Shown: positions 3,481 to 28,021 of the stretch, piece after piece
How positions within the stretch are numbered: the first letter of the stretch is position 1
Layout: every line of letters begins with the position of its first letter
NCBI GenBank assembly: GCA_021791415.1
Contig: JAJYWQ010000085.1
Span: 30,027-62,501, forward strand
Direction: 5' to 3'
Source of the DNA: a bacterium
GTDB taxonomy: Bacteria; Chloroflexota; Dormibacteria; Aeolococcales; Bog-877
Length of the DNA stretch: 32,475 nucleotides
Translations under genes and position numbers: made by a program
Notes under the pieces: generated by a model
What the model saw: the letters and a program-made list of their open reading frames with translations, nothing else
Databases searched by the model: none
Told to the model about the DNA's origin: nothing

Positions 3481-4892
3481 CTGGAACTCGCCTCCTTCGC
3501 ATGGCCGGGCGCTCCAAACGCCCGCTCCTCCGCCCTCCGCAGCTGGCCCTCCAACACGTCCAAGCCCCGGAGCAACGGCTCCTCCTCGATCGTGAGGGGC
3601 ATGAGGGCCCTCAGCACGTTGTGCGCCGGCCCCGCCCGCAGGACCAGCAACCCCTCCTCCCGGCATCCGGCGAGGATGGCGGCGGTCTCGTCCGTGGCCG
3701 GCTCCTTGCTGTCCCGGTCAAGCACCAGCTCCACCCCCGCCATGGCCCCGAGCTGGCGGACGTCGCCCACCAGCCGGTAGCGCCTCCCCCACTCCCCGAG
3801 GCGCTCCTCCAGTATCGAGGCCAAGACTCCGGCCCGCTCCAGCAGCTGGCCGTCCTCGACCAGGTCGAGGACGGCCAGCGCCGCGGCACAGGCGACCGGG
3901 TTGCCGCCGAAGGTCCCCCCCAGGCTGCCAGGGCCGGGCGCGTCCATGATCTCCGCCCTCCCCACCACCGCCGAGAGCGGCAGGCCCCCGGCCAGGCTCT
4001 TGGCGACCGTCATCAGGTCCGGTTCGACTCCGGAGTGCTCGATGGCGAAAAGCCTCCCCGTCCGGCCCATCCCGCTCTGGACCTCGTCGACCACCAGAAC
4101 GATCCCATGCCGGTCGCAGATGGCCCTCAGGCCCCGGAGGAAGTCGAAGGGGGCCGGTACGAACCCACCCTCGCCGAGGACCGGCTCGATCACCACCGCC
4201 GCCACCGTCTCCGGAGCCACCTCTCCGTCCAACAGCGCCTCGAGCGCGCCCAGGGCGCGGGCACCGTCCCAACCCCGGTACTCATAGGGATAGGGAGAGC
4301 GGTAGACCTCGCCCACAAAGGGACCGAAGCCCTCCTTGTAGGGGCGCTCGGTCCCGGTGAGGCTCATGGTGAGCAGGGTGCGTCCGTGGAAGGCGCCGGA
4401 GAAGGCGACCACCGCGGGTCGACCGGTGTAGAGGCGGGCGATCTTGACAGCGTTCTCCACCGCCTCGGCGCCGGAGTTCAGCAGCAGAGCCTTCTTGGGG
4501 TGGGGGCCGGGTGCGAGCCGGCACAATCTCTCCACCACGTCCAGGTAGGGGCGGTAGGCCGCCACCTGGAATGAGGTGTGAATCAGGAGGTCGAGCTGGC
4601 GGTGGGCGGCGGCCACCACCGCCGGATGGCCGTGGCCGACGTTGAGCACCCCGATCCCACCTGTGAAATCGATGAACTCCCGACCGGCCCCATCCCACAC
4701 CGTGGATCCCTGGGCCCGCTCCACCAAGAGCGGGTGGGCGGGGACCATCGCCCGCGGCAGGAAGCGGGAGAGGTGGCCGTCCTCCAGGGCGGCTCCGGCG
4801 ACGGTCGGCTCCAGCACCACCCTGACGATAGCGGTCGCCAGCTCGGGCGGATATGTTGGCGGCCCCAAGAAATCAGGGCCGGGATTTGTCAC
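3477..4892 (-). CDS. Class III PLP aminotransferase, 4-aminobutyrate aminotransferase-like
   Basis: A 471-residue fold-type I aminotransferase of the GabT/PuuE/ornithine group, predicted to move an omega-amino group to a 2-oxo acid. Seen in order: the N-terminal [17 protein letters not shown] strand block, [12 protein letters not shown] (phosphate cup, residues 139-150), AFHGRT (168-172), IEPVLGEGG (Glu236 region), [11 protein letters not shown] (269-279) and the Schiff-base lysine in TVAKSLAGG (Lys298). The start is GTG 4892, which overlaps the end of the PucR-type regulator by 20 nt. No strong Shine-Dalgarno is visible, so coupling to the regulator is likely. It is coupled in turn to the aldehyde dehydrogenase downstream. 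A role in GABA or polyamine catabolism is inferred from similarity and context. Confidence 0.88.
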
Positions 4893-6474
4893 CGAGTGAC
4901 ATGATCCGGGCCGCCAGCTGGAGCTGGAAGCGCACCTCGGGGTCGGCCAGGTCCATCTTCAGCAGGTCCTGAGAGCGGTCCAGGCGATAGCGCAGGGTGT
5001 TGGGATGGATGTGCAGGCGGGTGGAGGTCCGCCGCTGGTGGAACCCCTCCCGGGCCAGGGCCACCAGGCTGGCCACCAGGACATCGCCGCCACGAACCCG
5101 CTGCAGCGGGCCGAACAGCTGCTCCAGGAACGCCGGTCGGGCCTCGGCGTCGCCGGCCAGGACCCTCGGGATGAGCATCTCCTCGTAGCGGCGCACCCCG
5201 CCCACCGGGACCTGGTCGACGATCGCCTCCGCCTCCCGGTAGCTGCGGCGCACCCCTTCGGTGCCCACCAGCTCGCGCCCCAGCGCCAGCGAGCAGTCGG
5301 AGAGGTGGGCCATCAGCCGGGCCACATCCTGCCGGCCCGGGAGCAGGAAGACCACCCGGTTCAACCGCGTGGAGGTGACGGTCACGCCACCTCCCAGGGA
5401 GAGCCCCTGGCGGATGCGATCGGCGAGGCGGTCGCGCCGCAGGACGTCGTCGCGGCTGAGCGGGAGCCTGACCGGCATGGAAGCCACCCCCACGCGGTAG
5501 CTGCCCTCCGGGTCGAAGCCGAGGAGCCGAGCCCGCTCCTGGCTCGACGCCCCCGCCTCCAGACGGCCCTCGAGCAGGGCGTCGAGAAAGGTGGCACCCA
5601 GGCGCATCTCGACCATGGCCACCTGACGCTGACTGGCGATGTGCAGGGCGGCGACCGTCGCGGCGTGCTCGGCGGCGCGCAGGTGGAGGTCACTGAGCTC
5701 GCTCTCCCCCTCCACTATCCAGACGGTCCCCACCAGCTCGCCGCGCAGCCAGATGGGGCAGACCACCCGGGCAGTCAGGGAGAGATCGGGGTGCGCCGGG
5801 ATACGCACCGGGCCGCGGCTGTGGCGGACCCGCTCCAGGTAGCCCGAGCGCTCCAGGTGCGCCAGCACCTCGCTGGGGGTGGCTCCGTGGGCGAGAGTCG
5901 CCCGCCGGACCGCGTCCGGCTGCCGGGTGGCACTCCAGCTGGCCAGCAGCTTGCCCTCGGGGTCCTCGAGGGTGATGTCACGGTCGATGAGCCGCCCCAG
6001 GGTGTCTACCAGGTCCTGCAGGCTGCCCGCGGTGACCGCGGCCTGGGTGAGCTCCTTGTGGATCAGCGCCGCCAGCTCGATGACCCGCAGCTGTTCCAGC
6101 ATGATGGCCGAGTTAACCGCCCGGGTCACCGTGTTGAACGGCACCTCCCAGGGCAGCTCGAGCAAAGGGAGCCCGAGGCCGTCCGCCGCCTGGCGGGCCG
6201 CCTCAGGGAAGTGAGGCAGGTACCGGGGGACCGCCAGCACCACGCCGGCCAGGCCGCGCTCCGCCAGCTCCTGGAGCAGGGCTCGCTGCTCCCCCTCCTC
6301 AGCCGGCCAGCTGATCCCGGTGGTGAGGAGCAGCTGCCCTGCCCCCACCCAGGGAAGCGGGTCGGGAATGTCGACCACATCCGCCCAGCGCACCTCGCGG
6401 CTCAGCCCGTCCCCGCCGGCGACCACCACCGCCTGCGCCAGCGGGTCGAGAAGGAGCGCCTGGGACACCGTCAT
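4873..6474 (-). CDS. PucR-family transcriptional regulator
   Basis: About 533 residues. The N-terminal TVSQALLLDPL-AQAVVVAGGDGLSREVRWADVVDIPDP pattern is the PucR/purine-catabolism regulatory-like domain. A central GAF-like sensory region follows (around residues 130-290). The C-terminus has the CdaR/PucR helix-turn-helix: RRTSTRLHIHPNTLRYRLDR, then a DLADPEVRFQLQLA helix. It probably activates or represses the adjacent amine genes in response to a substrate or intermediate. ATG 6474 fits the usual family start; an in-frame GTG at 6516 is possible. Neither has a clear ribosome binding site. The gene overlaps the downstream aminotransferase start by 20 nt. The 101-nt gap upstream shows no distinct promoter, so it may share a transcript with the upstream aminotransferase. 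Confidence 0.87.
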   Translation of the reverse strand: MTVSQALLLDPLAQAVVVAGGDGLSREVRWADVVDIPDPLPWVGAGQLLLTTGISWPAEEGEQRALLQELAERGLAGVVLAVPRYLPHFPEAARQAADGLGLPLLELPWEVPFNTVTRAVNSAIMLEQLRVIELAALIHKELTQAAVTAGSLQDLVDTLGRLIDRDITLEDPEGKLLASWSATRQPDAVRRATLAHGATPSEVLAHLERSGYLERVRHSRGPVRIPAHPDLSLTARVVCPIWLRGELVGTVWIVEGESELSDLHLRAAEHAATVAALHIASQRQVAMVEMRLGATFLDALLEGRLEAGASSQERARLLGFDPEGSYRVGVASMPVRLPLSRDDVLRRDRLADRIRQGLSLGGGVTVTSTRLNRVVFLLPGRQDVARLMAHLSDCSLALGRELVGTEGVRRSYREAEAIVDQVPVGGVRRYEEMLIPRVLAGDAEARPAFLEQLFGPLQRVRGGDVLVASLVALAREGFHQRRTSTRLHIHPNTLRYRLDRSQDLLKMDLADPEVRFQLQLAARIMSLGDKSRP

Positions 6475-6617
6475 GGCGCCGGACGCGGCGGTGCGCCGCA
6501 GCGGGCTGTCGATCACCGGACGGACCCGGACCGCTGGGGACGACCGCTTCGCCCGGGGAGATTCGCCACGGGCTGATGATGCACCAGTCGCCGGCCGGCG
6601 GTGCCGGGTCGCGGCCG

Positions 6618-7988
6618 TCAGGCGCGCAGCGCCCTCGCCATCTCCTCGAAATTGTCCACGTAGCGGCGGACGTCCTCCTCGGAGTGCTGGACCGACAGCG
6701 TCCAGTTCTCCTCCGCCCCGGGAGCCATCAGCACGCCCCGGTTCGACTGGTAGAGCCAGGAGAGGTAGGCGTAACTCTTGTCGATCTCGAGGTAGTCACG
6801 GTAGTTCCTGACCGGATCCTGACGGTAGGTGACGCATCCCCGAGCCCCCACCGCCACGACGTGGAAGGGCAGCTGGTATTCCCGGATCACCCGCTCCAGC
6901 CCCCCGCGCAGCACCTCGTGGAGTGCGTCGAAATGGGAATAGGCCATCGGGGTGAGAACCTCCAGAAGGGTGGCCTTGGAGGCCGCCATGGTGAGGGCGT
7001 TGCCGTTGAAGGTTCCCATCTGGCTGATGCGACCCGACGCCACCATCTCCATGATCTCCGCGGTGGCCCCCACCGCCCCGCAGGGCAGCCCCCCGCCGAT
7101 CGCCTTGGCCAGGCAGACGATGTCCGGGGTCACCGAGAAGGCCTCGGTGGCCCCGCCGGGGGCGAGGGTCACCCCCGTCTTTACCTCGTCGAAGATCAGG
7201 ACCGCGCCGTGCCGGTGGGCGATCTCCTTGAGGCCGGCAAGGTACCCGGGCTCGGGAAGCACCATCCCGATGTTCATCATCGCCGGCTCCACGATGATCG
7301 CGGCCACCTCCCCGGGGTGGCCGTCCAGGGCGCGCTCCGCGGCGGCCAGGTCGTTGAAGGGAACCACGGTCACCAGCTCCACCACTGCCTCGGGGATGCC
7401 AGCGGACTGAGGCACGGAGTTGGGGGCGTCCGCGGGGCCCATGAGCTCTGGCTTGGGCTCCACCGAGACCATCAGGGAGTCGTGGTGGCCATGGTAGGTG
7501 GCCTCGATCTTCACCACCCGCTCCCGGCCGGTGAACCCACGGGCCAGACGCACCGCGTCCAGGGTCGACTCGGTGCCGCTGTTGGTGAACCGCCACTGCG
7601 GCAGCTGGAAGCGCCTGGCCAGCTCGGCGGCCACCACCACGAAGTCCTCTCCGGGTTGGGCGAAGTGGGTCCCCCGGCCGGCCCGCTCGGCGATCGCCGC
7701 CACCACGGCAGGATGGGCGTGGCCCACCACGTTCACCCCGAAGCCGTTGTGAAAGTCCACGTACTCGTTGTCATCGGCGTCCCAGACACGGCTGCCGGCG
7801 CCTCGGTCCACGAAGATGGGGAACGGGGGGCTGTCCTGGAACGAGGATGGGACCCCTCCCGGGCTGTGCTCACGGGCCCGCCGCACCAGCTCCTGGGAGC
7901 GCGGCCGGCGGCGCCCGAACTCCCGCTCCTCACGCTCGGTGAGCTCGGCGATCCGATCAGTTGCCGGGCTCGGTCTCTCGCTGCTCAT
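6618..7988 (-). CDS. Class III aminotransferase, glutamate-1-semialdehyde aminomutase-like
   Basis: 456 residues, fold-type I PLP enzyme. Motifs: VWDADDNEYVDFHNGFGVNVVGHAHP near the N-terminus, TNSGTESTLDAVRLAR (135-150), YHGHHD (165-170), VEPAMMNIG (233-241), FDEVKTG (266-272) and the PLP lysine in CLAKAIGGGLP (Lys295). The pattern is closest to the HemL-like subgroup. The catabolic neighbourhood and the absence of other haem genes argue that this copy is a catabolic amine transaminase rather than the tetrapyrrole enzyme. ATG 7988 has AAGGAG 8 nt upstream and is the first gene of the minus-strand group, divergent from the FAD oxidase across a 329-nt gap. Confidence 0.85.
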   Translation of the reverse strand: MSSERPSPATDRIAELTEREEREFGRRRPRSQELVRRAREHSPGGVPSSFQDSPPFPIFVDRGAGSRVWDADDNEYVDFHNGFGVNVVGHAHPAVVAAIAERAGRGTHFAQPGEDFVVVAAELARRFQLPQWRFTNSGTESTLDAVRLARGFTGRERVVKIEATYHGHHDSLMVSVEPKPELMGPADAPNSVPQSAGIPEAVVELVTVVPFNDLAAAERALDGHPGEVAAIIVEPAMMNIGMVLPEPGYLAGLKEIAHRHGAVLIFDEVKTGVTLAPGGATEAFSVTPDIVCLAKAIGGGLPCGAVGATAEIMEMVASGRISQMGTFNGNALTMAASKATLLEVLTPMAYSHFDALHEVLRGGLERVIREYQLPFHVVAVGARGCVTYRQDPVRNYRDYLEIDKSYAYLSWLYQSNRGVLMAPGAEENWTLSVQHSEEDVRRYVDNFEEMARALRA

Positions 7989-8317
7989 TTCCCATCTCCT
8001 TCACACAAGTCGCGCCCCAACCTGGATGGACACCCTGTGGGGCACACCTCTGCCCCTCGCAGAGGACCCGTCAGGTGGGCGCCAGGGCCCGGGTGCGCCG
8101 GGAGGATGGCCGCGGTGAGGTGGTACCCCCCTCCCCCGCCGCAGCGCGAGTCCCCTCGGGGCAACGGCATGCGGCGAGCTGGAGCGCCGGCGAATGGGTG
8201 GGCATCGGAGTCCAACTCTATCCCCCCTCCCGGGCCTCGGGACATGTGGGCCCGGCCCAGAGTTGCCCCCACATTTTGTGACCCAAGTCCAATGCCAGCG
8301 CCCACGGGGGCGAACTT
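7989..8317. promoter_or_regulatory. Divergent control region between aminotransferase and FAD oxidase
   Basis: A 329-nt gene-free region that must hold the promoters of both divergent units. The clearest symmetry is CACATTTTGTG at 8270-8280, a short inverted repeat 38 nt before the oxidase start and a candidate operator. GGGCCGGGCCC-like runs lie nearby. I do not find a good -35/-10 pair on either strand. Confidence 0.35.
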
Positions 8318-9715
8318 ATGATCAGCGCCGTGACCCGCGTCCCACCGCAGCTGGCACCCGGCTTCTGGATCTCCGACGCTCATCCCGGCGCGCCGCGCGC
8401 CCCCTTGCAGGGGAGCCGCCGGGTGGATGTGACGGTGGTGGGGGGTGGCTTCACCGGCCTTTGGACGGCATACCACCTCCTGCGGCTGGAGCCTTCCGCC
8501 AAGGTTCTCGTCCTGGAGCGGGAGCGGGTGGGATTCGGAGCCTCGGGGCGTAACGGCAGCTGGTGCGTCCCCGAGCTGAATGCCGGGCCGACCCTTCTGG
8601 CCGGGCACTTCGGGGCCCCGAGGGCGGCGGAGCTGCATGCCGCGATGCGGGCCACGGTGGACGAGATAGGGCAGTTCTGTTCCCAGGAGGGCATCGAGGG
8701 GTTCGACAAGGCCGGGGTCCTGCTCGTGGCCCGAGGTCGGGGACAGATGCCCGCCCTGGAGGCCACCCAGCGGGAGTGGGAACAGGCCGGCATGACCAGC
8801 CCCTACCAGCGGATGACCGCTGCCGAGGCGGATGGGAAGCTGGCAGTCCACCAGATGGAGGGCGCCCTGTTCTCCCCGGAGGGGGCTTCGGTCCACCCGG
8901 GAAAGCTGGTCCAAGGGCTCGCTGCCGCCGTGGAGCGAATGGGTGGCGAGATCTTCGAGGGGAGCGGCGTCACGAGCATCGAGGAGGGCAGGCCGCCCAG
9001 GGCTCGGACGGAGCTGGGCGAGGTGACCGCCGGCGTCGTCGTCCTGGCACTGGAGGCTTACCTCACCCAGCTCCCCGGGTGGCACCGGGCCGTCCTCCCG
9101 GTGTACTCCCTGATCGAGTTGACCGAGCCCCTGACCGAGGCCCAGTTGGCATCGGTGAACTGGCGGTCGCGGATCTGCGTCTCCTCGATGCGGCTCACGG
9201 TCGACTACCTGGCGCTCACCCCCGACCGGCGGGTCCTGGTCGGGGGACGGGGGGCCCCTTATCGATACGGCTCAGCTCTATCCCCGGGGCTGGAGCACCA
9301 CCGAGCCACGCACGAGGGACTGCGGGCGATGTTCCGGGAGTGGTTTCCCGCCCTCGCGGGGGTCAAGTTCACCGATTCGTGGGGAGGGGTGTTGGGGATG
9401 CCCAGGGATTGGATCCCCCAGGTGAGGCTGGACCGGGGTCGAGGTCTCGGGGTCGCCTACGGGTACACCGGGCACGGGGTCGCCACCACCCACCTTCTGG
9501 GCCGCACCATGGCCGAGCTGATCGCCGGCCGGGAATCAGAGCGCACCGATCTGCCGCTGGTGGGGCACCGGTCGCCGGCGTGGGAGCCGGAGCCCCTCCG
9601 CTGGATGGCCGTCCGATATGTGCAGCGGCAGCTGGCCGGGCTGGACTCCCGCGCGGCCAGGGGGGGGCGTCCCCCCTCCGGTCGGACGGTCGCGGAGAGG
9701 CTGGCGGCGCACTGA
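8318..9715 (+). CDS. FAD-dependent oxidoreductase, DAO/PuuB-like amine oxidase
   Basis: 465 residues. An N-terminal Rossmann dinucleotide-binding motif VTVVGGGFTGLWTAYHL (GGGFTG at 42-47) and ERVGFGASGRNGSW follow the pattern of the D-amino-acid-oxidase superfamily, in particular glycine-oxidase and gamma-glutamylputrescine-oxidase-like members. A late GVAYGYTGHGVATTHLLGR block is the usual second FAD contact. It would oxidise a C-N bond of an amine with FAD, releasing an aldehyde or imine and peroxide; the substrate is unknown. It has no signal peptide, so it should be cytoplasmic. The ATG follows a G-rich CGGGGGCG stretch, a moderate ribosome binding site. Its place beside aminotransferases and aldehyde dehydrogenases suggests it supplies the aldehyde. 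Confidence 0.86.
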   Translation: MISAVTRVPPQLAPGFWISDAHPGAPRAPLQGSRRVDVTVVGGGFTGLWTAYHLLRLEPSAKVLVLERERVGFGASGRNGSWCVPELNAGPTLLAGHFGAPRAAELHAAMRATVDEIGQFCSQEGIEGFDKAGVLLVARGRGQMPALEATQREWEQAGMTSPYQRMTAAEADGKLAVHQMEGALFSPEGASVHPGKLVQGLAAAVERMGGEIFEGSGVTSIEEGRPPRARTELGEVTAGVVVLALEAYLTQLPGWHRAVLPVYSLIELTEPLTEAQLASVNWRSRICVSSMRLTVDYLALTPDRRVLVGGRGAPYRYGSALSPGLEHHRATHEGLRAMFREWFPALAGVKFTDSWGGVLGMPRDWIPQVRLDRGRGLGVAYGYTGHGVATTHLLGRTMAELIAGRESERTDLPLVGHRSPAWEPEPLRWMAVRYVQRQLAGLDSRAARGGRPPSGRTVAERLAAH

Positions 9716-9717
9716 GG

Positions 9718-9732
9718 CCACCCACCGGGTGG
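9718..9732 (+). terminator. Hairpin after the FAD oxidase stop codon
   Basis: CCACCC-ACC-GGGTGG starts 2 nt after the TGA. It is a 6-bp GC stem with a 3-nt loop but no U-tract, so it is a weak intrinsic terminator or a 3' stabiliser. Confidence 0.35.
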
Positions 9733-9965
9733 ACGGATTGTGATCGGGCCACAAATCGCCAGACTCAGATTTGATGATCGGCCCCATGGCCGCGCCCTGA
9801 GCCTCGGCCTAAAGTCGGAGGTTGCCGTGAGTGCCGGGTGGCTCGCGGGAGATCCGGTGCTGTTTCGGACCAAGAGGCGCGGAGGCCGAGAGGATGCGCC
9901 CGCTGGGACGGGAAGAGGCGGTGTTCCATCTGTGCCAGGGCTACCGGGGAGAGGAGTAGAGAGTG

Positions 9966-11867
9966 ATGAGATTCATCAGGGTCCACGGTGACGGCTCGTC
10001 CGCCGGGGGCGCTCACCGGAGCAGGGGACGCCGGACCGCCCTCGGGGCGAGCATGCTGGCGGGGCTGGGGCTGCTGGTGGCAGCCTGTGGTTCCACCACC
10101 ACCTCGTCCCCGCCGGTTCCGACCAACATCGCCCAGACCCCGCCGACCGGCGGAACCCCGGTGGCCGGGGGCACCGCCAGCTACGCCCTTCCCATCGGGG
10201 AGGACTTCTCCTGGATCTTCCCGATTGAGAACCAGGCCAACTACGAGGACTGGAACTCCAACATCGAGGGGGGTATGTGGCGGCCGCTCTACTTCGCTGG
10301 GGGCCCCGGCCAGACGGGCATCAACTACCAGCTCTCGATCGCCAATCCCCCCGTGTACTCCAACGGAAACCGCACCGTGACCGTGACCATGAAGCAGGGC
10401 TACACCTGGTCCGATGGCACGCCAGTGACCACCGCCGACGTGCAGTTCTTCTTCCAGCTCTTGAGCGCCGGCAAGAACAAGGACGGCGCCTACATCCCCG
10501 GTGAGATGCCCGACGACGTCAGCTCGGTCTCCATCGACAGCCCCTACCAGTTCACGCTCAACCTAAACCAGGCCTACAACCCCAGCTGGTTCACCAACAA
10601 CCAGCTCACCTGGATCTACCCCCTGCCGCAGCAGGCGTGGGACAAGACCTGCCTCACCTGCCAGGTGGGCAACAACGCCGCCACTCCCTCGGGCGCCAAG
10701 AGCGTCTTCAACTTCCTGTATGGCCAGTCGGAGAAGCTGAGCACCTACTCCAGCAATCCCCTGTGGAAGGTGGTGGACGGGCCCTGGGTCATCAAGTCCT
10801 TCGACCCCACCACCTACACCGCCCAGTTCTCCGCCAACAGCCACTACACAGGGGCGGGAAAGCCCCAGCTGAGCGGGTACTCGGTCTACAGCTTCCAGTC
10901 GGACACCGCCGAGGTGGACGCCCTGCGTTCGGGAGCCATCGACTTCGGCTTCCTGCCCTTCACCGACCTCACCCTGGCGACCTACTTCCACCAGCACGGC
11001 TTCACCACCGCGCCCTGGCCGGTCTTCTACAACGAGACCGTCGAGCTGGGATTCACCAGCAAGACCTGGGGGCCGTTGGTCAAACAGCTGTACATCCGTC
11101 AGGCTCTCCAGCACCTCATCAACGAGTCGCTCTTCCTGCAGAAGACGCTCCACGGCTTCGGCCTCCCCGACTACGGGCCGGCCCCGGTCTACCCCAACTC
11201 CCAGTACGTAAGCCCCCAGACCACCTCGGACCCCTACCCGTACAGCGTGAGCGCCGCCAAGCAGCTGCTGGCCAGCCACGGCTGGACCCAGGGGTCCGGC
11301 GGGGTGGATGTCTGCAGCCGGCCGGGTACGGCCAGCGATGAGTGCGGCGCCGGGATTCCCAAGGGCAAGCAGCTCAGCTTCCTCTTCATGTACTCCACCG
11401 GAACCCCCAGCTTCCTGGCCCAGGTCGAGGCGTTTGCCACCGCAGCCAAGTCGGCTGGGATCGGGATCAACCTGGACGGGCAGACCGAGACCACCATGTT
11501 CTCGATCGGCGGTGTCTGCCCCTCCTCACCCCCCTGCAACTGGGGCCTTTTGGCCTACAGCGGCTTCATGTGGGACTACGGCCAGTACGAGATCCTTCCG
11601 GTGGGTGGGAACCAGTTCGGCCAGGGCAACTACTGGGCGGGGGGCTACAACTCCTCTCAGGCTCAGCACTTGATCACCGCCGCCCACACCCAGCCCGGCC
11701 TGACTCCCCTCTACAACGTGGAGAACTATCTCTCCACCGACGAGGCCTCGCTCTGGTGGCCGCTGGCGGACTACGAGATCGTGGTGGCCAAGAACAGCCT
11801 GCGCGGCTGGTACCCGCTCAACCCCTACGCCAACTACCACCCCTCCAGCTGGTACTTCGTGAACTGA
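9966..11867 (+). CDS. ABC transporter substrate-binding lipoprotein, peptide/nickel (SBP_bac_5) type
   Basis: 633 residues. The N-terminus has an Arg-rich n-region, a hydrophobic stretch and a lipobox LLVAAC, so the mature protein is predicted to be lipid-anchored at the cysteine near residue 41. A Thr/Ser/Pro linker follows. The mature part carries family-5 binding-protein features: a 'GGMWRPLYF' early block, VTMKQGYTWSDGTPVTTADVQFFF, and a later 'YIRQALQHLINESLF' helix. It would capture a peptide, amine-containing or amide solute and pass it to the Dpp-like permeases encoded downstream. ATG 9966 and an adjacent GTG 9963 are both reachable from the GGAGAGGAG ribosome binding site. Extra cysteine pairs in the C-terminal half may form disulfides. 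Confidence 0.9.
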   Translation: MRFIRVHGDGSSAGGAHRSRGRRTALGASMLAGLGLLVAACGSTTTSSPPVPTNIAQTPPTGGTPVAGGTASYALPIGEDFSWIFPIENQANYEDWNSNIEGGMWRPLYFAGGPGQTGINYQLSIANPPVYSNGNRTVTVTMKQGYTWSDGTPVTTADVQFFFQLLSAGKNKDGAYIPGEMPDDVSSVSIDSPYQFTLNLNQAYNPSWFTNNQLTWIYPLPQQAWDKTCLTCQVGNNAATPSGAKSVFNFLYGQSEKLSTYSSNPLWKVVDGPWVIKSFDPTTYTAQFSANSHYTGAGKPQLSGYSVYSFQSDTAEVDALRSGAIDFGFLPFTDLTLATYFHQHGFTTAPWPVFYNETVELGFTSKTWGPLVKQLYIRQALQHLINESLFLQKTLHGFGLPDYGPAPVYPNSQYVSPQTTSDPYPYSVSAAKQLLASHGWTQGSGGVDVCSRPGTASDECGAGIPKGKQLSFLFMYSTGTPSFLAQVEAFATAAKSAGIGINLDGQTETTMFSIGGVCPSSPPCNWGLLAYSGFMWDYGQYEILPVGGNQFGQGNYWAGGYNSSQAQHLITAAHTQPGLTPLYNVENYLSTDEASLWWPLADYEIVVAKNSLRGWYPLNPYANYHPSSWYFVN

Positions 11868-11882
11868 CGCCGGAAACCCCTG

Positions 11883-13535
11883 TTGCAGCCCCGAACCGAC
11901 CTGCTCATCACCGGCGGTCCGATCTGGACCGGCCGCTTAGAGCAGCCCTGGGTTGAGGCCCTGGCGGTCCGCGACGGCAAGGTCGCGGCCGCCGGGCCAC
12001 TCAGGGAAGTCAGGGAGGTATCGGCGCCTCGGGCCGAGACCTTTGAGCTGAGGGGGCGGGCGGTCATTCCCGCGTTCCACGACGCCCACTGCCACCCCAT
12101 CGGCGGCGGGCTGCAGCAGCGCAGCTGCGACCTCGAGGGTGCGAGAACCCCTGGCGAGTGTCAGGAGAGGATCCGAGCGTACCTGGCCGCGCACCCGGAT
12201 GTGGAGTGGGTCCTTGGCAAAGGATGGTCGATGGAGCTGTTCGCGCGGGGCACCCCCGAGCGGCAGCTACTGGACCAGGTGACCGGGGAGCGCCCGGCCT
12301 ACCTCATCAACCGCGACGGCCACAGCGCCTGGGTCAACTCGGCCGCCCTCCGGCTGGCGGGGATCGAAGCCACGACCCCGGATCCCCAGCACGGCAGGAT
12401 CGAGCGGACGGAGGGCGGCGACCCCCAGGGCACTTTGCACGAGGGCGCCATGGAGCTGGTCGGGCGCCTGGCCCCCACCACCACCGATGCGGAGCGGCTC
12501 GCCGCACTGCGTCAGGCCCAGGCCCACCTGCACGGCCTGGGGATCGCCGGCTGGCAGGATGCCATGGTCGACCCCAAGACCGAGGCGGCCTACACGGCTC
12601 TGGCCCAGGCCGGGGACCTCTCCGCCAGGGTGCGCCTCGCCCTCTGGTGGGAGCGGGAGCAGGGCCTCGAGCAGGTCGAGGAGCTGGACCATCGGAGGAG
12701 GCGCCTGGCGGAGTTGGGGCTGGACGGCGGCAGCGTCAAGATCATGCTCGACGGGGTGATGGAGACCTTCACCGCCGCGCTGCTGGATCCCTACCTGACC
12801 CTTCCCGGCGGACCGCCTCCGGGCCAGCTGGGCCACCTCTTCCTGGATCCCGAATCGGCGACGGCCGCCACTTCGGCCCTGCACCGCCAGGGCTTCCAGG
12901 TCCACTTCCACGCGATCGGGGACCGCGCGGTGCGAGTCGCCCTGGACGCGGTGGCGCGCGCGTCCAGGGAGGGTGGACGGGACCTCCGCCACCACGTAGC
13001 TCACATCCAGCTGGTGCATCCCGCCGATCTTCACCGTTTCCACGAGCTCAAGGTGGTGGCCAACATGCAGCCCTTCTGGGCCTGTCACGAACCACAGATG
13101 GACGAGATGACCATCCCCTTCCTGGGAGCGGAGCGGTCTCTGCACCAGTACCCCTTCCGGGACCTGGCCCACTCCGGGGCGGTCCTCGCGGGGGGGTCGG
13201 ACTGGCCGGTCTCGACCGCCAACCCCCTGGAGGAGATCGCCGTGGCCACGACCCGCCGCGCTCCCTGGGACAGGGACCGAGGGGTGTCGTCACCACCCGC
13301 CTTCCTACCCGAGCAGGTACTCCCCCTGGCCACGGCGCTGTCAGCCTTCACCGCGGGGTCGGCCTACGTCAACCACCTGGAGCATGTGACCGGTACCCTG
13401 GAGGCCGGCAAGGCGGCGGACCTGGTGGTGCTGGCCCAGGACCCGTTCTCCATCCCCCTGGACCGGCTGCCCGAGGCCCGGGTCGAGATCACCATGGTCG
13501 ACGGCCGGGTGGTGTTCCACCGGGACGGGGCCTGA
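11883..13535 (+). CDS. Amidohydrolase family 3 (YtcJ-like) metal-dependent hydrolase
   Basis: 550 residues. The N-terminal composite beta-sandwich begins TDLLITGGPIWTG. The metal site HDAHCHP has the HxH pair at residues 69 and 71. Further conserved signals are a SVKIMLDGVME block (carbamylated-lysine position in relatives), VHFHAIGDRAV, LRHHVAHIQLV, and the catalytic aspartate in GGSDWPVS. A C-terminal GTLEAGKAADLVVL strand closes the fold. It would hydrolyse an amide, N-acyl or cyclic C-N bond of a small molecule in the cytoplasm; substrate not predictable. Start TTG 11883 lies only 15 nt after the binding-protein stop with a weak GGAAA signal. It interrupts the transporter genes, tying the reaction to the imported solute. 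Confidence 0.85.
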   Translation: MQPRTDLLITGGPIWTGRLEQPWVEALAVRDGKVAAAGPLREVREVSAPRAETFELRGRAVIPAFHDAHCHPIGGGLQQRSCDLEGARTPGECQERIRAYLAAHPDVEWVLGKGWSMELFARGTPERQLLDQVTGERPAYLINRDGHSAWVNSAALRLAGIEATTPDPQHGRIERTEGGDPQGTLHEGAMELVGRLAPTTTDAERLAALRQAQAHLHGLGIAGWQDAMVDPKTEAAYTALAQAGDLSARVRLALWWEREQGLEQVEELDHRRRRLAELGLDGGSVKIMLDGVMETFTAALLDPYLTLPGGPPPGQLGHLFLDPESATAATSALHRQGFQVHFHAIGDRAVRVALDAVARASREGGRDLRHHVAHIQLVHPADLHRFHELKVVANMQPFWACHEPQMDEMTIPFLGAERSLHQYPFRDLAHSGAVLAGGSDWPVSTANPLEEIAVATTRRAPWDRDRGVSSPPAFLPEQVLPLATALSAFTAGSAYVNHLEHVTGTLEAGKAADLVVLAQDPFSIPLDRLPEARVEITMVDGRVVFHRDGA

Positions 13536-13574
13536 CGGCGTGAGAATGCTGCCCATGTCCACCCCGGCGCGGCC

Positions 13575-14516
13575 GTGACCCGCTACCTGCTGCGGCGCCT
13601 GGGGCAGGCAATCCTGGTACTGCTGCTCGTCTCGGTGCTGGTGTTCTCGCTCCTCCACGTCCTGCCGGGGGGACTGGTTCGAGCCCAACTCGGCCCCAAG
13701 GCCACCCCCCACGAGGTGGCCCAGCTGGCCATCCAGGAGGGGTTGAACAAGCCGATCTTCGTCCAGTACGCGATCTGGCTGGGCAACGCCCTCCATGGCA
13801 ACCTGGGGTACTCCTACAAGCTCAACTCCCCGGTGGCCACTCTGCTCGGGGAGTACTTCCCCCGCGACCTGCTGCTGGTCGGGATCGCCCTCTTCCTGGC
13901 CATCGCGATCTCCATCCCCCTGGGCCTCCTGCAGGGAGTGCGGCGCAACCGGGACATCGACTACGGCCTCTCCTTCCTCCTGCTGGCGCTCTACTCCATG
14001 CCCAGCTTCCTCCTCGGGGTCATCGGGATCATCCTCTTCAACATCGAGTTCAACGTCTTCCCCCCGACGGCGATCCACTTCGGCACCTCCTTCGGGGCGG
14101 ACGTCTCGGCCCTGGTGCTGCCGGTGGGCACCCTCATGCTGGGCAACGTCGCCTACTACAGCCGCTACATGCGGTCGGCGGTCATCGACAACCTCTTGGA
14201 GGACTACGTCCGCACCGCCAAGGCCAAGGGCTCCAGCTGGCGGAGGATCCTCTCCCGCCACGTGCTGCGCAACTCGCTCCTCCCCACCGTCAGCCTGGTG
14301 GGCATCAGCTTTCCGTACGTGATCAGCGGGTCCCTCATCGTGGAGGCGCTCTTCGACTATCCAGGGATGGGGCTCCTCTTCTGGAACGCCTCCCAGGACC
14401 GTGACTACCCCGTCCTCCTGGGCGTCATCCTCCTGATCAGCGCCGCGGTCGTCGTGGGCAACCTGGTGGCCGACATCCTCTACATGGTGCTCGACCCGAG
14501 GATTCGCTATGGCTGA
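13575..14516 (+). CDS. ABC transporter permease, DppB-like
   Basis: 313 residues with about six predicted membrane segments, beginning MTRYLLRRLGQAILVLLLVSVLVFSLLHVLPGG-like, the standard DppB/OppB N-terminus. The cytoplasmic EAA loop is seen as DYVRTAKAKGSSWRRILSRH followed by VLRNSLLPTV. It forms half of the membrane channel for the upstream binding protein. The start is GTG 13575. No clear ribosome binding site precedes it, but a 10-codon open frame (ATG 13546) ends in a TGA overlapping this GTG and could provide coupling. The downstream permease overlaps its last 8 nt. Confidence 0.9.
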   Translation: MTRYLLRRLGQAILVLLLVSVLVFSLLHVLPGGLVRAQLGPKATPHEVAQLAIQEGLNKPIFVQYAIWLGNALHGNLGYSYKLNSPVATLLGEYFPRDLLLVGIALFLAIAISIPLGLLQGVRRNRDIDYGLSFLLLALYSMPSFLLGVIGIILFNIEFNVFPPTAIHFGTSFGADVSALVLPVGTLMLGNVAYYSRYMRSAVIDNLLEDYVRTAKAKGSSWRRILSRHVLRNSLLPTVSLVGISFPYVISGSLIVEALFDYPGMGLLFWNASQDRDYPVLLGVILLISAAVVVGNLVADILYMVLDPRIRYG

Positions 14517-15471
14517 CGCCCTGGACGAGCCCCTCGCCACCGCGCCCGCGCTGGCCGACGCCGAGCCCGCCGCACTCGGGCCGGGGGAGGCGAGCGAGCT
14601 GGCCTGGGAGGAGGCCTGGACCCCGCCCAATCACCTGCTGGAGAACCTCCGGGTCTACGCCAAGAACCGCATCGCCCTCGGAGGGGCGGTCTTCCTCGCC
14701 CTGGTGGTCCTCTTCTCCTTCCTGGGACCGCTCATCTACCAGACCGACCAGGTCTCCACCAACCTGCTCAACGGCAACCTCACCCCCTCGGCCGCCCACC
14801 TTCTCGGCACCAGCCCCGAGGGCCGTGACATCCTCGGGCGACTCATGGTCGGCGGCCAGGCGACGATCGAGGTCGCGCTGGCGGTGGCGGCGATCGCCAC
14901 CGCCTTCGGCACCCTCTGGGGTGCCCTGGCCGGGTTCCTGGGTGGGGTGGCGGACGCCTTCATGATGCGGGTGGTGGACGCCATGCTGTCCATCCCCTTC
15001 CTCTTCTTCGTAGTCCTGCTGGCCGCCCTGGTCCAGCCGTCACTGCCCATCATCATCCTGGCCATCGCCTCGGTCAGCTGGCTCTCCACCGCCCGGCTGG
15101 TGCGGGGCGAGGTGCTCAGCCTGCGCACCCGGGACTACGTGGCGGCGGCGCGGTGTTTCGGGAGCGGGCCCTGGCAGATCATCTTCCGCCACCTGCTCCC
15201 CAACTCCCTGGGCGTCGTGGTGGTGAACGCCACCCTCAAGGTGGCGGACGCGATCCTGACCTTCGCCTCGATCAGCTTCCTGGGGCTGGGGGTGCCTCCC
15301 CCGGCCACCAGCTGGGGACAGATGCTCACCACCGGCATCAGCAACCTCTTCAACGGGTACTGGTGGGAGCTTTGGCCGGCCGCCTTCTTCATCGTGGGGA
15401 CGGTGATCGCCATCAATGTCATGGGCGACGGTCTTCGCGACGTGGTGGAGAAGCGCCTTCAGCAACGTTGA
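14509..15471 (+). CDS. ABC transporter permease, DppC-like
   Basis: 320 residues. An acidic, Ala-rich cytoplasmic N-terminus of about 50 residues precedes the first membrane segment (ALGGAVFLALVVLFSFLGPL). The LLGTSPEGRDILGRLMVGGQ block is characteristic of DppC/OppC proteins. The EAA loop appears as RTRDYVAAARCFGSGPWQII with a following LLPNSL. It overlaps DppB by 8 nt, so the two are translated together. No ATP-binding subunits lie in the window, so the ATPases must come from another locus. Confidence 0.9.
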   Translation: MADALDEPLATAPALADAEPAALGPGEASELAWEEAWTPPNHLLENLRVYAKNRIALGGAVFLALVVLFSFLGPLIYQTDQVSTNLLNGNLTPSAAHLLGTSPEGRDILGRLMVGGQATIEVALAVAAIATAFGTLWGALAGFLGGVADAFMMRVVDAMLSIPFLFFVVLLAALVQPSLPIIILAIASVSWLSTARLVRGEVLSLRTRDYVAAARCFGSGPWQIIFRHLLPNSLGVVVVNATLKVADAILTFASISFLGLGVPPPATSWGQMLTTGISNLFNGYWWELWPAAFFIVGTVIAINVMGDGLRDVVEKRLQQR

Positions 15472-15517
15472 GCGCCGCCTCGCGTGAGCGGCGGACGTGA
15501 ATAGGGAGGAGACACCG

Positions 15518-16996
15518 ATGACGCTGACCCTGGCCGCCCAGGCCCGCTCCGCCCTCGGGCCGGAGCCGCTCCACCTTCGCCTCTATCTCGGAGGTGCCGG
15601 CGAGGAGACCAAAGAGCACCTGCCGCTGGTGAGCCCGGTGACCGGGGATGTGATCGCCGAGGTGCCGGTGCCCGAGCGCGAACAGATCGCCCGGGCGGTG
15701 CTGTTGGCGCGCGACGCCCAGCGGCGGTGGGCCGAGGTGGGCGCCTTCCAGCGGGCCGAGGTATGCCACCGGATCGGGGATGCACTCCTGGCACGCCGGG
15801 ACGACCTGGCCCGGCTGCAGACCTTGGAGCAGGGGAAGCCCCTGGCGGAGTCGGTCGCGGACATCGAGGAGGCGGCCCAGCTCTTCCACCTCCACGCCGA
15901 GGACCTGGTCCGCCTCAGCGGCGAGACGCTGCCGGTGCGCGACCCGCACAAGCGCATGGTCACCTTCCGGCGACCGGTGGGCACCTGGGCCATCATCACC
16001 CCCTGGAACTTCCCAGTGCTGATGATGGCTGAGTTCACGGCGCCGGGCCTCGCCACCGGCAACGCCCTGGTGGTCAAGCCGCCGGCTCACACCTGCGCCG
16101 CGGTGCTGGCGGCGACCGCGGCCTTCGAGGAGGCCGGACTGCCCCCAGGTCTGGTGAGCGTTCTCCCGGGCGACGGGGGGGTCGGCGAGATGATGCTGGA
16201 GGAGCCGGGGTTCGACGCCATCGGATTCATCGGCTCATCGGCCACCGGGGCCCGCATCCAGGCCCTGGCCGGGCTCCGCCGGACCATCATGGAGTGCTCG
16301 GGAAACGGTCCGGTCGTCGTCTGCGCCGACGCCGACGTGGAGCGTGCCGCCAGGGCGGCGGTGTACGGCGCCTACCTCTGCTCGGGGCAGGTCTGCTGTG
16401 CCACCGAGCGGGCCCTGGTGCACCGGGCAGTCCACCGGGACTTCCTGGATGCCTGTGCCGCCGAGGCCCAGCGGGTCCGGCTCGGGGACCCCTTCGACCC
16501 CGAGGTGAACCTGGGCCCCTTGAACAACGCCGCGGTGGCGTCCAAGATGGACCGCCACATCCAGGACGGCCGCCATAGGGGAGCCCGGGTGCTCACCGGG
16601 GGAACGCGCCGCGCGGGGATGCCGACCGACCTCTACTACGAGTTCACCATCATGGACCAGGTGACGCCGGGGATGGCGGCCTTTCAGGAGGAGTCGTTCG
16701 GTCCCCTGCTCCCGGTCACCGTGGCCGACGACGACGCCGGGCTGCTTCAGCTCGCCAACCAGGACGCCCTCGGCCTGCAGGCGGCGGTCTTCACCCGCGA
16801 CCTGGCTCGGGCATTCCACTTCGCCGAGCACCTCGAGGTCGGGCAGGTGGTGGTCAACGACACCACCGACTACTGGGACATCAACATGCCCTTCGGAGGC
16901 GCAGGCGGCAAGCACAGCGGCTGGGGACGGATCGGGGGAAAGTGGACCCTGATGGACATGTCGGACATCAGGACGGCGATCCTCGACCTCTCCTGA
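15518..16996 (+). CDS. NAD(P)-dependent aldehyde dehydrogenase, second copy
   Basis: 492 residues, ALDH superfamily. ATG 15518 is preceded by AGGGAGGAG at a 6-nt spacing, so I reject the upstream in-frame GTG 15497. Motifs: ITPWNFPV (Asn164), LVVKPPA (Lys187), the general base in MECSGNGP (Glu259) in place of the common LELGG pattern, and the nucleophile in CSGQVC (Cys293) with a second cysteine just after it. The C-terminal MPFGGAGGKHSGWGR block is the usual oligomerisation and active-site region. It is only about 29% similar by eye to the copy at 2035-3480, so it should have its own aldehyde substrate. It follows the permease genes by 46 nt on the same strand. Confidence 0.87.
   Translation: MTLTLAAQARSALGPEPLHLRLYLGGAGEETKEHLPLVSPVTGDVIAEVPVPEREQIARAVLLARDAQRRWAEVGAFQRAEVCHRIGDALLARRDDLARLQTLEQGKPLAESVADIEEAAQLFHLHAEDLVRLSGETLPVRDPHKRMVTFRRPVGTWAIITPWNFPVLMMAEFTAPGLATGNALVVKPPAHTCAAVLAATAAFEEAGLPPGLVSVLPGDGGVGEMMLEEPGFDAIGFIGSSATGARIQALAGLRRTIMECSGNGPVVVCADADVERAARAAVYGAYLCSGQVCCATERALVHRAVHRDFLDACAAEAQRVRLGDPFDPEVNLGPLNNAAVASKMDRHIQDGRHRGARVLTGGTRRAGMPTDLYYEFTIMDQVTPGMAAFQEESFGPLLPVTVADDDAGLLQLANQDALGLQAAVFTRDLARAFHFAEHLEVGQVVVNDTTDYWDINMPFGGAGGKHSGWGRIGGKWTLMDMSDIRTAILDLS

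Positions 16997-17407: not shown

Positions 17408-17415
<8 letters not shown>
17014..17415 (-). CDS. VOC (glyoxalase/dioxygenase fold) family protein
   Basis: Up to 133 residues. The body starts [23 protein letters not shown] and ends [15 protein letters not shown], the two halves of a glyoxalase-6-like vicinal-oxygen-chelate protein. Such proteins bind metals or small ligands; no specific reaction is inferred. The only early in-frame start is TTG 17415, which overlaps the rpoC stop and lets the first 20 codons run through a large hairpin. A GTG at 17349 would give 111 residues but start inside the first strand. It converges with the aldehyde dehydrogenase across 17 nt. Confidence 0.7.
17373..17406 (-). 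terminator. Large GC hairpin immediately after rpoC
   Basis: A 15-bp stem (CCCCCAGGGTCCGGC paired with GCCGGACCCCGGGGG, one mismatch) and a 4-nt loop begin 1 nt after the rpoC TGA. It has no U-tract. It is a candidate end of the rpoBC transcript or a 3' stability element, and it also lies inside the predicted 5' coding part of the VOC gene. Confidence 0.5.
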
Positions 17416-21763
<4,348 letters not shown>

Positions 21764-26494: not shown

Positions 26495-26545
26495 CGGGCG
26501 ACTACCTCCTCGTCACCCGGGGGAAGCCAGGCTCGCGGGCGCCGA

Positions 26546-26555
26546 CCCCGCGGGG
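26546..26555 (-). promoter_or_regulatory. CCCCGCGGGG palindrome that can compete with the L10-leader stem
   Basis: This perfect 10-nt palindrome lies between the leader and the rplJ ribosome binding site. Its CGCGGGG half is identical to the 5' strand of the leader helix, so either can pair with the single CCCCGCG at 26573-26579. A switch between two structures is therefore possible. Confidence 0.4.
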
Positions 26556-26560
26556 CCGCC

Positions 26561-26640
26561 GCCGGTCACCTGCGCGGGGTGGGGGTTTGAGCATCGCTGC
26601 CCCCGCGGTCTTCGGCTCCGGGGAACTGGCTGGTTCCAGA
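26561..26640 (-). ncRNA. L10-type autoregulatory leader of rplJ-rplL
   Basis: Read on the minus strand, GCCG (26613-26616) pairs with CGGC (26561-26564). Inside, AAGAC faces CAGGTGAC as an asymmetric internal loop, and CGCGGGG (26601-26607) pairs with CCCCGCG (26573-26579). This helix, kink-turn-like loop and helix arrangement, with CCGAAGAC and GCGCAGGTGA, is what I know of the ribosomal L10 leader. A further hairpin GGAAC-CAGCCA-GTTCC lies upstream near 26624-26639. No covariance search was possible. Confidence 0.65.
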
Positions 26641-26647
26641 GGGACCA

Positions 26648-26677
26648 AGTATAGGGCTCAGCGGCCCCCCGGGTCGC
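26648..26677 (-). promoter_or_regulatory. Promoter candidate for rplJ-rplL
   Basis: The -10 box TATACT (26648-26653) is identical to that of the rpmG promoter. The best -35 match is weak (GCGACC, 18-nt spacer) and lies in the last codons of the deoC gene. Transcription would start just before the L10 leader. Confidence 0.45.
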
Positions 26678-27362
26678 CGGCCGGGCGCAAGCGCCATTCC
26701 TCCACTATCCCGATCCCCCGGGACGCCCCCACCCGGGTGGCTCCGGCGTCCACCATCTCCTCGAGCTGCCCCAGGGTCCGGATCCCGCCGGCGGCCTTGA
26801 TCCCGGTCGACGGCGAGAGCCGCGAGCGCAGCAGGCGGACGTCTCCGGCGCTGGTGGTCCGGATCCCCAGCTGCTTGTAACCGGTGGAGGTCTTGACCAG
26901 GTCCGCGCCCCCGGCCTCGGCGGCGACCCCCACCGGCCCCACCAGGTCGGCCGCGAGGACCGGGACCTCGATGATCACCTTGAGGAGCCGCGGATGTGCC
27001 ACCGCCCGGCGGACCGCCGCGACCTCCCGCTCCACCCAGCCGAGATCTCCCTCCCGAGCCCGCCCGGTGTGCACCACCATGTCGATCTCATCGACCCCCA
27101 GGTCGCAGAGCTCCCCCGCCTCCTGGGCCTTGACCTCCCGCGCGTCCAGGCCCAGCGGAAAGGAGACGCAGGCCGCGAGCCCGACCGAGGTCCCCCTCAG
27201 GATGGGGAGCGCCACCTCCACCTGATCGGGAAGCAGGCACAGGGCCCGGAATCCGAAGGGCACGGAGCGTTCGCAGAAGGCGGCGATCTCCTGCGCGGAA
27301 GCCCCCATCTCCAGGTTGGTCTGATCGATCAGCCCCGCCAGCTCCTCCTCGGTGCTGATCAC
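26658..27362 (-). CDS. deoC: Deoxyribose-phosphate aldolase
   Basis: 234 residues, TIM-barrel class I aldolase that splits 2-deoxyribose-5-phosphate into glyceraldehyde-3-phosphate and acetaldehyde. The three catalytic positions are intact: Asp94 in DEIDMVV, the Schiff-base Lys157 in VKTSTGY, and Lys189 in GIKAAGGIRT, with spacings like the E. coli enzyme (Asp102, Lys167, Lys201). The C-terminal GATRVGASRGIGIV phosphate-binding strand is present. The start GTG 27362 overlaps the TGA of the upstream homologue by 4 nt (GTGA). Its position between rplA and rplJ is unusual: these ribosomal genes are normally adjacent. Confidence 0.9.
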   Translation of the reverse strand: MISTEEELAGLIDQTNLEMGASAQEIAAFCERSVPFGFRALCLLPDQVEVALPILRGTSVGLAACVSFPLGLDAREVKAQEAGELCDLGVDEIDMVVHTGRAREGDLGWVEREVAAVRRAVAHPRLLKVIIEVPVLAADLVGPVGVAAEAGGADLVKTSTGYKQLGIRTTSAGDVRLLRSRLSPSTGIKAAGGIRTLGQLEEMVDAGATRVGASRGIGIVEEWRLRPAGDPGGR

Positions 27363-28021
27363 GGAATCGACCGGGTGGAGAACGCCGACCAGCCAACCGC
27401 CACCCGGGTGGCGCCGGCCCGCAGCAGCTGAGCCGCCAGAGCCGGCGCGGTCACCCCTCCGGACGCCACCACGACCGCATCCCGGCCAACCCTGAGGCGG
27501 AGCGCGGCGACCTGCTCCACGCTGACCTCGCCGTCGAAGTGAGAGTTGGTCATGAGCACGTCGGCTCCCGCGTCCAGGGCGCCGGCCGCGGCCTCCGCCC
27601 CGAGATCGCTACCCAGCAGGGCCAGGTGGCAGATGACCCTCAGGGTCCGGCCCACCGCCAGCCGTCTCAGGGGAGCAACCCCTCCCAGGGCCCGTCCCAG
27701 CTGCCCGGAACGCACCAGCGAAGGGTCCATGGCCACCGCCAGCTCGTCCGCGCCGTCCGCCAGCGCCCGCTCGGCCTGGGCCATCCGCGAGGCGCTGGTC
27801 ATGGCCCCCAGGGGTGCCGAGACCAGCGCCACCACGGCCATGGGGGATGCCCCGAGAAGACCACGGGCCAGGGCGACCTCCGCGGGGTCCACGGCCAGCG
27901 CCGCCATCCCGGCCCGCGAGATCCCCCGGATCGCTGTGCCCAGCTCCGCCCGGGTCGCGGCCACGAGGTCCGGCCAGCCCTCCAGCTGGTCACTACGCGC
28001 GGGCGCCACCGAGGCCGACAT
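27359..28021 (-). CDS. DeoC-like protein lacking the catalytic residues (probable pseudoenzyme)
   Basis: 220 residues. It aligns by eye with the deoC gene downstream: VSAPLG matches VSFPLG, the DEL strand matches DEID, GADVLMTNS matches GADLVKTST, and ASGGVTAPALAAQLLRAGATRVAVG matches AAGGIRTLGQLEEMVDAGATRVGAS. The catalytic aspartate is Ala95, the Schiff-base lysine is Met157 and the second lysine is Val185, so aldolase chemistry is not expected. The phosphate-site GATRVAVG is retained. Start ATG 28021 has a weak AGGG signal; rplA ends 49 nt upstream. It could be a regulatory or structural partner of the active DeoC; this is inference. The frame is clean, so it is not a decaying gene. Confidence 0.82.
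   Translation of the reverse strand: MSASVAPARSDQLEGWPDLVAATRAELGTAIRGISRAGMAALAVDPAEVALARGLLGASPMAVVALVSAPLGAMTSASRMAQAERALADGADELAVAMDPSLVRSGQLGRALGGVAPLRRLAVGRTLRVICHLALLGSDLGAEAAAGALDAGADVLMTNSHFDGEVSVEQVAALRLRVGRDAVVVASGGVTAPALAAQLLRAGATRVAVGWSAFSTRSIP

Follow-up and report, generated by a model that had tools for sequence, protein, structure and literature searches.

A selected DeoC pseudoenzyme gene paired with a deoxyribose-phosphate aldolase gene in Candidatus Dormibacterota

In a genus of Candidatus Dormibacterota, DeoC2, a predicted deoxyribose-phosphate aldolase (DERA), is encoded beside a catalytically dead DeoC copy, here called DeoC1, which is a genuine pseudoenzyme kept by selection and a gene stably partnered with DeoC2. 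The pair was found in the window, the whole 32,475-nucleotide stretch of DNA analysed here, which lies in contig C78 of the MAG of a soil-type Candidatus Dormibacterota bacterium (G000; 2.16 Mb, 86 contigs). From sequence, we see an even chance that the two proteins form a heteromeric aldolase in which DeoC1 is the pseudoenzyme partner, retained by selection.

The gene pair and its catalytic residues

On the minus strand of the window the gene order is nusG-rplK-rplA-DeoC1-DeoC2-rplJ-rplL-rpoB-rpoC. DeoC1 (27359..28021, 220 aa) begins with ATG after a 49-nt gap from its upstream neighbour rplA (L1; 28071..28781), and its TGA stop overlaps the GTG start of DeoC2 (26658..27362, 234 aa) by 4 nt in a GTGA junction (27359..27362). 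Downstream of DeoC2 lie a conserved leader (26495..26657) and rplJ (L10; 25946..26494). The open reading frames and coordinates bear out the two overlapping deoC-family genes with a GTGA junction that an earlier note had placed between rplA and rplJ, and alignment to solved DERAs agrees with its residue calls for both proteins. The two proteins share 31% identity over 176 aa. As the pair recurs in other lineages and in eight genomes of the genus that were assembled separately, an assembly artefact was ruled out; its presence in the eight genomes also makes it more than a chance arrangement.

Against TIGR00126, the NCBIfam deoC equivalog with a curated cut-off of 117.3 bits, DeoC2 scored 163.8 bits. 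Its Asp94, Lys157 and Lys189 (codons 27081..27083, 26892..26894 and 26796..26798, minus strand; Lys157 forming the Schiff base) align with Asp102, Lys167 and Lys201 of Escherichia coli DERA, for which catalytic roles have been described (PMC8403123). By family score and catalytic residues, DeoC2 is assigned as a class I deoxyribose-phosphate aldolase. DeoC1 also hits TIGR00126, but under the cut-off (76.6 bits, E = 1.7e-21), and a profile HMM search with it found no match to any new family. At the positions of the catalytic Asp, the Schiff-base Lys and the second Lys, it has Ala95, Met157 and Val185 (codons 27737..27739, 27551..27553 and 27467..27469, minus strand), and these residues are present in all six full-length copies from the core genus. 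The phosphate-binding strand that the earlier note described in DeoC1 is retained in part: Gly-Gly is kept (G188 G189), whereas Thr replaces the Arg two positions further along, and Val-Gly-Trp replaces the ancestral Thr-Ser-Ser at 209–211.

AlphaFold2 single-chain models predict a DERA barrel for DeoC1 (pLDDT 81, pTM 0.81) and a barrel for DeoC2 (pLDDT 93, pTM 0.90). In a Foldseek search with the DeoC1 model, the best PDB match was 5dbu (TM 0.83), and the top PDB matches listed were DERAs or DERA-family aldolases with TM values of about 0.8.

Distribution, phylogeny and selection

The pair is present in the rplA–rplJ region in 8/8 genomes of the genus, with the 4-nt overlap in seven and, counting the core genus by itself, in 7/7, and it lies between the two ribosomal genes in every member with enough contig; the G006 and G002 loci end at contig ends, which in G006 cuts DeoC1. 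In G001, the most distant congener, an FGGY kinase gene (L032:6235-7788, plus strand) also stands between rplA and DeoC1. This kinase scored under all NCBIfam cut-offs, with XylB closest, and was rejected as a conserved partner, there being no close copy in the other pair genomes (best 32%). In G008, from another genus of the family, the pair has guaB-, guaA- and purD-like genes and one for a DksA-type protein in its vicinity. Outside the phylum, it was found in at least three MAGs or genomes, namely G110 (L073, Acetobacteraceae), G294 (same family) and G111 (L074, Acidobacteria), and its neighbours there are MFS transporters (G110 and G294) or LacI, SDR and nucleoside hydrolase genes (G111). 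In all lineages found, the order is DeoC1-DeoC2 and the two are always adjacent, with a 4-nt overlap in 9/12. The earlier note had proposed checking for co-occurrence with the adjacent deoC across a clade: DeoC1 was always paired, and isolated copies were not found.

This distribution, from a scan of genome contigs, is a lower bound. Samples of 399 genomes from the phylum of G110 and 396 from that of G111 yielded no further DeoC1; other DeoCs in these samples reached at most 168 bits, against more than 350 for the true DeoC1 of those groups. A separate canonical DeoC accompanies the pair in G110 and G111. A search of G000 by family profile gave no other TIGR00126 gene, and its only PF01791 match within threshold is a different aldolase-family protein of 304 aa. 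Plasmid-borne relatives were also considered and set aside, with best identities of 37% for DeoC1 and 46% for DeoC2. A single DeoC relative (L013; G017:C47:37549-38091) that lacks the KTSTG motif is highly divergent and sits on a long tree branch.

In a 71-row tree, DeoC1 and DeoC2 (11 rows each) form one clade each, with support of 100/99, and no canonical DeoC falls inside either. In a tree of the pair members alone, the DeoC1 and DeoC2 halves agree: G001 joins the core genus and G110 joins G294, such matching sub-clades being expected from co-inheritance. The DeoC1 of G008 joins the core clade in the 71-row tree, where the pair-only tree instead puts G001, as for DeoC2; holding G008 with the core gave a p-AU of 0.08. 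The 71-row placement is probably a long-branch effect. The branch to core DeoC1 has about 2.3–2.5 changes per site, compared with 0.6–0.7 on the matching DeoC2 branch.

The ancestral-type DeoC1 proteins (G001, G110, G111 and G294) keep the Asp and the Schiff-base Lys, with Met in place of the second Lys, and that of G001 passes TIGR00126 at 125 bits. The DeoC1 of G008 has Asn, Ile and Met at the catalytic positions, and the second Lys is changed in every DeoC1 seen. Taken with the core genus, these residue states imply that catalytic loss was stepwise: the sequences indicate that DeoC1 was not born fully dead and that the remaining catalytic residues were lost on one fast branch. Because relatives still carry the intermediate state (second Lys lost, other two kept), each step of the transition from enzyme to pseudoenzyme can be traced and tested.

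DeoC1 is under purifying selection, weaker than that on DeoC2. Core DeoC1 has dN/dS of 0.19–0.46 (median about 0.37), compared with 0.17–0.27 (about 0.22) for core DeoC2, 0.02–0.11 for rplA and 0.05–0.11 for rplJ; in neutral simulations from the same sequence, the 95% ranges start at 0.63–0.76. The six full-length core DeoC1 copies, 69–94% identical and so differing by up to 31% in protein, contain no internal stops or frameshifts. These results rule out a pseudogene: the clean 220-codon frame pointed out earlier is an intact, selected gene, and the relaxed selection (dN/dS near 1) that was to be looked for was not found.

Compared with ancestral DeoC1, the core-genus copies have fixed changes on the catalytic face (Y69A, D95A, YY131-132CH, K157M, G161H, G163D, M185V and TSS209-211VGW) and, at the N-terminus, a new, nearly invariant DQ(L/V)EGWPDLVA motif with a 3-residue insert. 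The loops and strands of the catalytic face are 72% invariant, compared with 53% for the helices, and the new pocket residues Cys131-His132, His161, Asp163 and Trp211 are invariant in the core genus. The changes on this face and the better conservation of its loops and strands argue against simple decay and leave room for a new ligand site.

Proposed role and alternative explanations

The two genes form one co-inherited, usually overlapping unit, in which DeoC1 arose from a paralogue already altered at the second Lys (to Met) and, in this genus, became a catalytically dead but selected pseudoenzyme. We propose that it most likely assembles with DeoC2 and, in a structural or allosteric role, would stabilise or tune the enzyme. 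DERAs are reported as dimers or tetramers (PMC8403123), so a hetero-oligomer would be an easy step. The suggestion that the dead copy is a partner of the active aldolase thus holds as far as the gene is concerned, which is stable, selected and always paired, as expected for a subunit; the assembly itself we infer. Several observations speak against a subunit. DeoC2 has all the DERA residues and might need no partner, the evolutionary rate of DeoC1 is higher (dN/dS about 0.37 vs 0.22), and the loops of the DeoC1 catalytic face are among its most conserved parts, which could mean a ligand site and not an interface. About 11 pairs were available for co-variation.

G008 also fits poorly with an active DeoC2 and a helper. 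Neither member of its pair (L033:8664-9515 and 9512-10180, minus strand) has the Schiff-base Lys, which is Gln (codon CAG) in DeoC2 and Ile in DeoC1, and the G008 genome yielded no further DeoC. Either a sequence error, a loss or a non-aldolase pair would account for this.

In G000, the likely job of the pair would be to cleave deoxyribose-5-phosphate to glyceraldehyde-3-phosphate and acetaldehyde, because the pair is the only DeoC found there and a pyrimidine-nucleoside phosphorylase is encoded elsewhere. The phosphorylase (TIGR02644) is above cut-off in G000, G004 and G007, and none was found in G001 and G008, both incomplete MAGs. It is therefore plausible that the core-genus pair provides the DERA step in deoxynucleoside breakdown. 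In other lineages the pair more likely acts on carbohydrates, and the ancestral pair probably served the breakdown of an externally taken-up sugar, judging by its neighbours (sugar transporters, an FGGY kinase and a LacI regulator).

The former aldolase pocket of core DeoC1 (Ala95, Met157, Val185 and the new invariant residues) might have become a new site for sensing a ligand or for catalysis, so that in a regulated aldolase of two subunits one barrel would sense and the other cut; we hold this reading to be unlikely. The many fixed catalytic-face changes of core DeoC1 (Y69A to TSS209-211VGW), its new N-terminal motif and its well-conserved catalytic-face loops favour neofunctionalisation, with the old active site rebuilt for binding or converting a different ligand and DeoC1 staying by DeoC2 only via a common pathway. 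We consider this unlikely given that the two genes are strictly paired and mostly overlap in whichever lineage and at whichever locus they occur, that the HMM search gave no new family match, and that the changes are read from a small set of six similar core sequences. A further alternative is that the two ancestral proteins were both enzymes of a sugar pathway, catalysing two aldolase steps or acting on two substrates, and that core DeoC1 is a remnant decaying slowly under relaxed selection. The Asp and Schiff-base Lys retained in G001, G110, G111 and G294, the kinase, transporter, LacI, SDR and nucleoside hydrolase genes beside these pairs, and the extra canonical DeoC of G110 and G111 agree with such an ancestor, and the long branch and higher dN/dS of core DeoC1 agree with erosion. 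The dN/dS is, however, well under neutral, the core copies have stayed full-length and uninterrupted despite their divergence, and new invariant residues arose alongside the catalytic loss, leaving this explanation unlikely.

The genomic setting raises another explanation, that placement between rplKA and rplJL ties the pair to ribosome synthesis, with deoxynucleoside salvage thereby following growth rate. The pair holds this position in all genus members with enough contig, and a simple scan of the 49-nt gap after rplA showed no terminator-like site; the pair may be co-transcribed with rplKA. However, it is located elsewhere in G008, G110, G294 and G111, and a conserved leader separates it from rplJ. 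This leader of about 163 nt is nearly invariant in seven genomes and starts with a conserved TATACT-like element right after DeoC2, suggesting that rplJ probably has a separate start and is controlled through its own leader. Genes intervening between rplA and rplJ occur in other bacteria (Mycobacterium), so the position by itself says little about function. We regard ribosomal coupling as improbable, and the link to growth rate suggested in the earlier note is weak and goes unsupported.

The region 26495–26657 (minus strand) is probably an L10 leader, with GGAAC/GTTCC and CGCGGGG/CCCCGCG helices. It had no match in Rfam 15, even at E 5, and its predicted structure showed no covariation because the sequence barely varies. 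Elsewhere in the window, rpoC (17408–21763, minus strand) starts with TTG and carries an extended coiled-coil-like insertion (about residues 150–330) that is probably lineage-specific. Translations from 4873–16996 read as a PucR-type regulator, an aminotransferase, an FAD oxidoreductase, a peptide-type ABC transporter, an amidohydrolase and an aldehyde dehydrogenase, a cluster resembling polyamine/GABA breakdown.

Comparison with known systems

Literature searches found no report of tandem deoC genes or of a DERA pseudoenzyme. The pair resembles DeoC/DERA (TIGR00126; EC 4.1.2.4) in the family score, Asp/Lys/Lys residues and predicted barrel of DeoC2 and in the fold of DeoC1, whereas DERA is normally one gene and a homo-oligomer and here is accompanied by a dead paralogue in overlapping genes. 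The pair would also be relevant to the engineering of DERAs, for which stability and oligomeric state are important.

In trypanosomatid deoxyhypusine synthase, a dead paralogue activates its catalytic partner (PMC3663545). As in the DeoC pair, enzyme and dead paralogue are both kept, providing a model for activation by a pseudoenzyme subunit; unlike the DeoC pair, known from sequence alone, that system is eukaryotic, of another family and pathway, and biochemically proven. Two plant proteins, the TSB-like paralogue that activates the catalytic partner in tryptophan synthase (PMC12727527) and PDX1.2, a pseudoenzyme of PLP synthase that regulates vitamin B6 synthesis (PMC6829848), are, like DeoC1, non-catalytic paralogues of metabolic enzymes, but belong to other families and have no overlapping gene pair. 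The enzyme–pseudoenzyme pairs found in the literature here are eukaryotic; the DeoC pair offers a bacterial candidate, from an aldolase family that is well understood.
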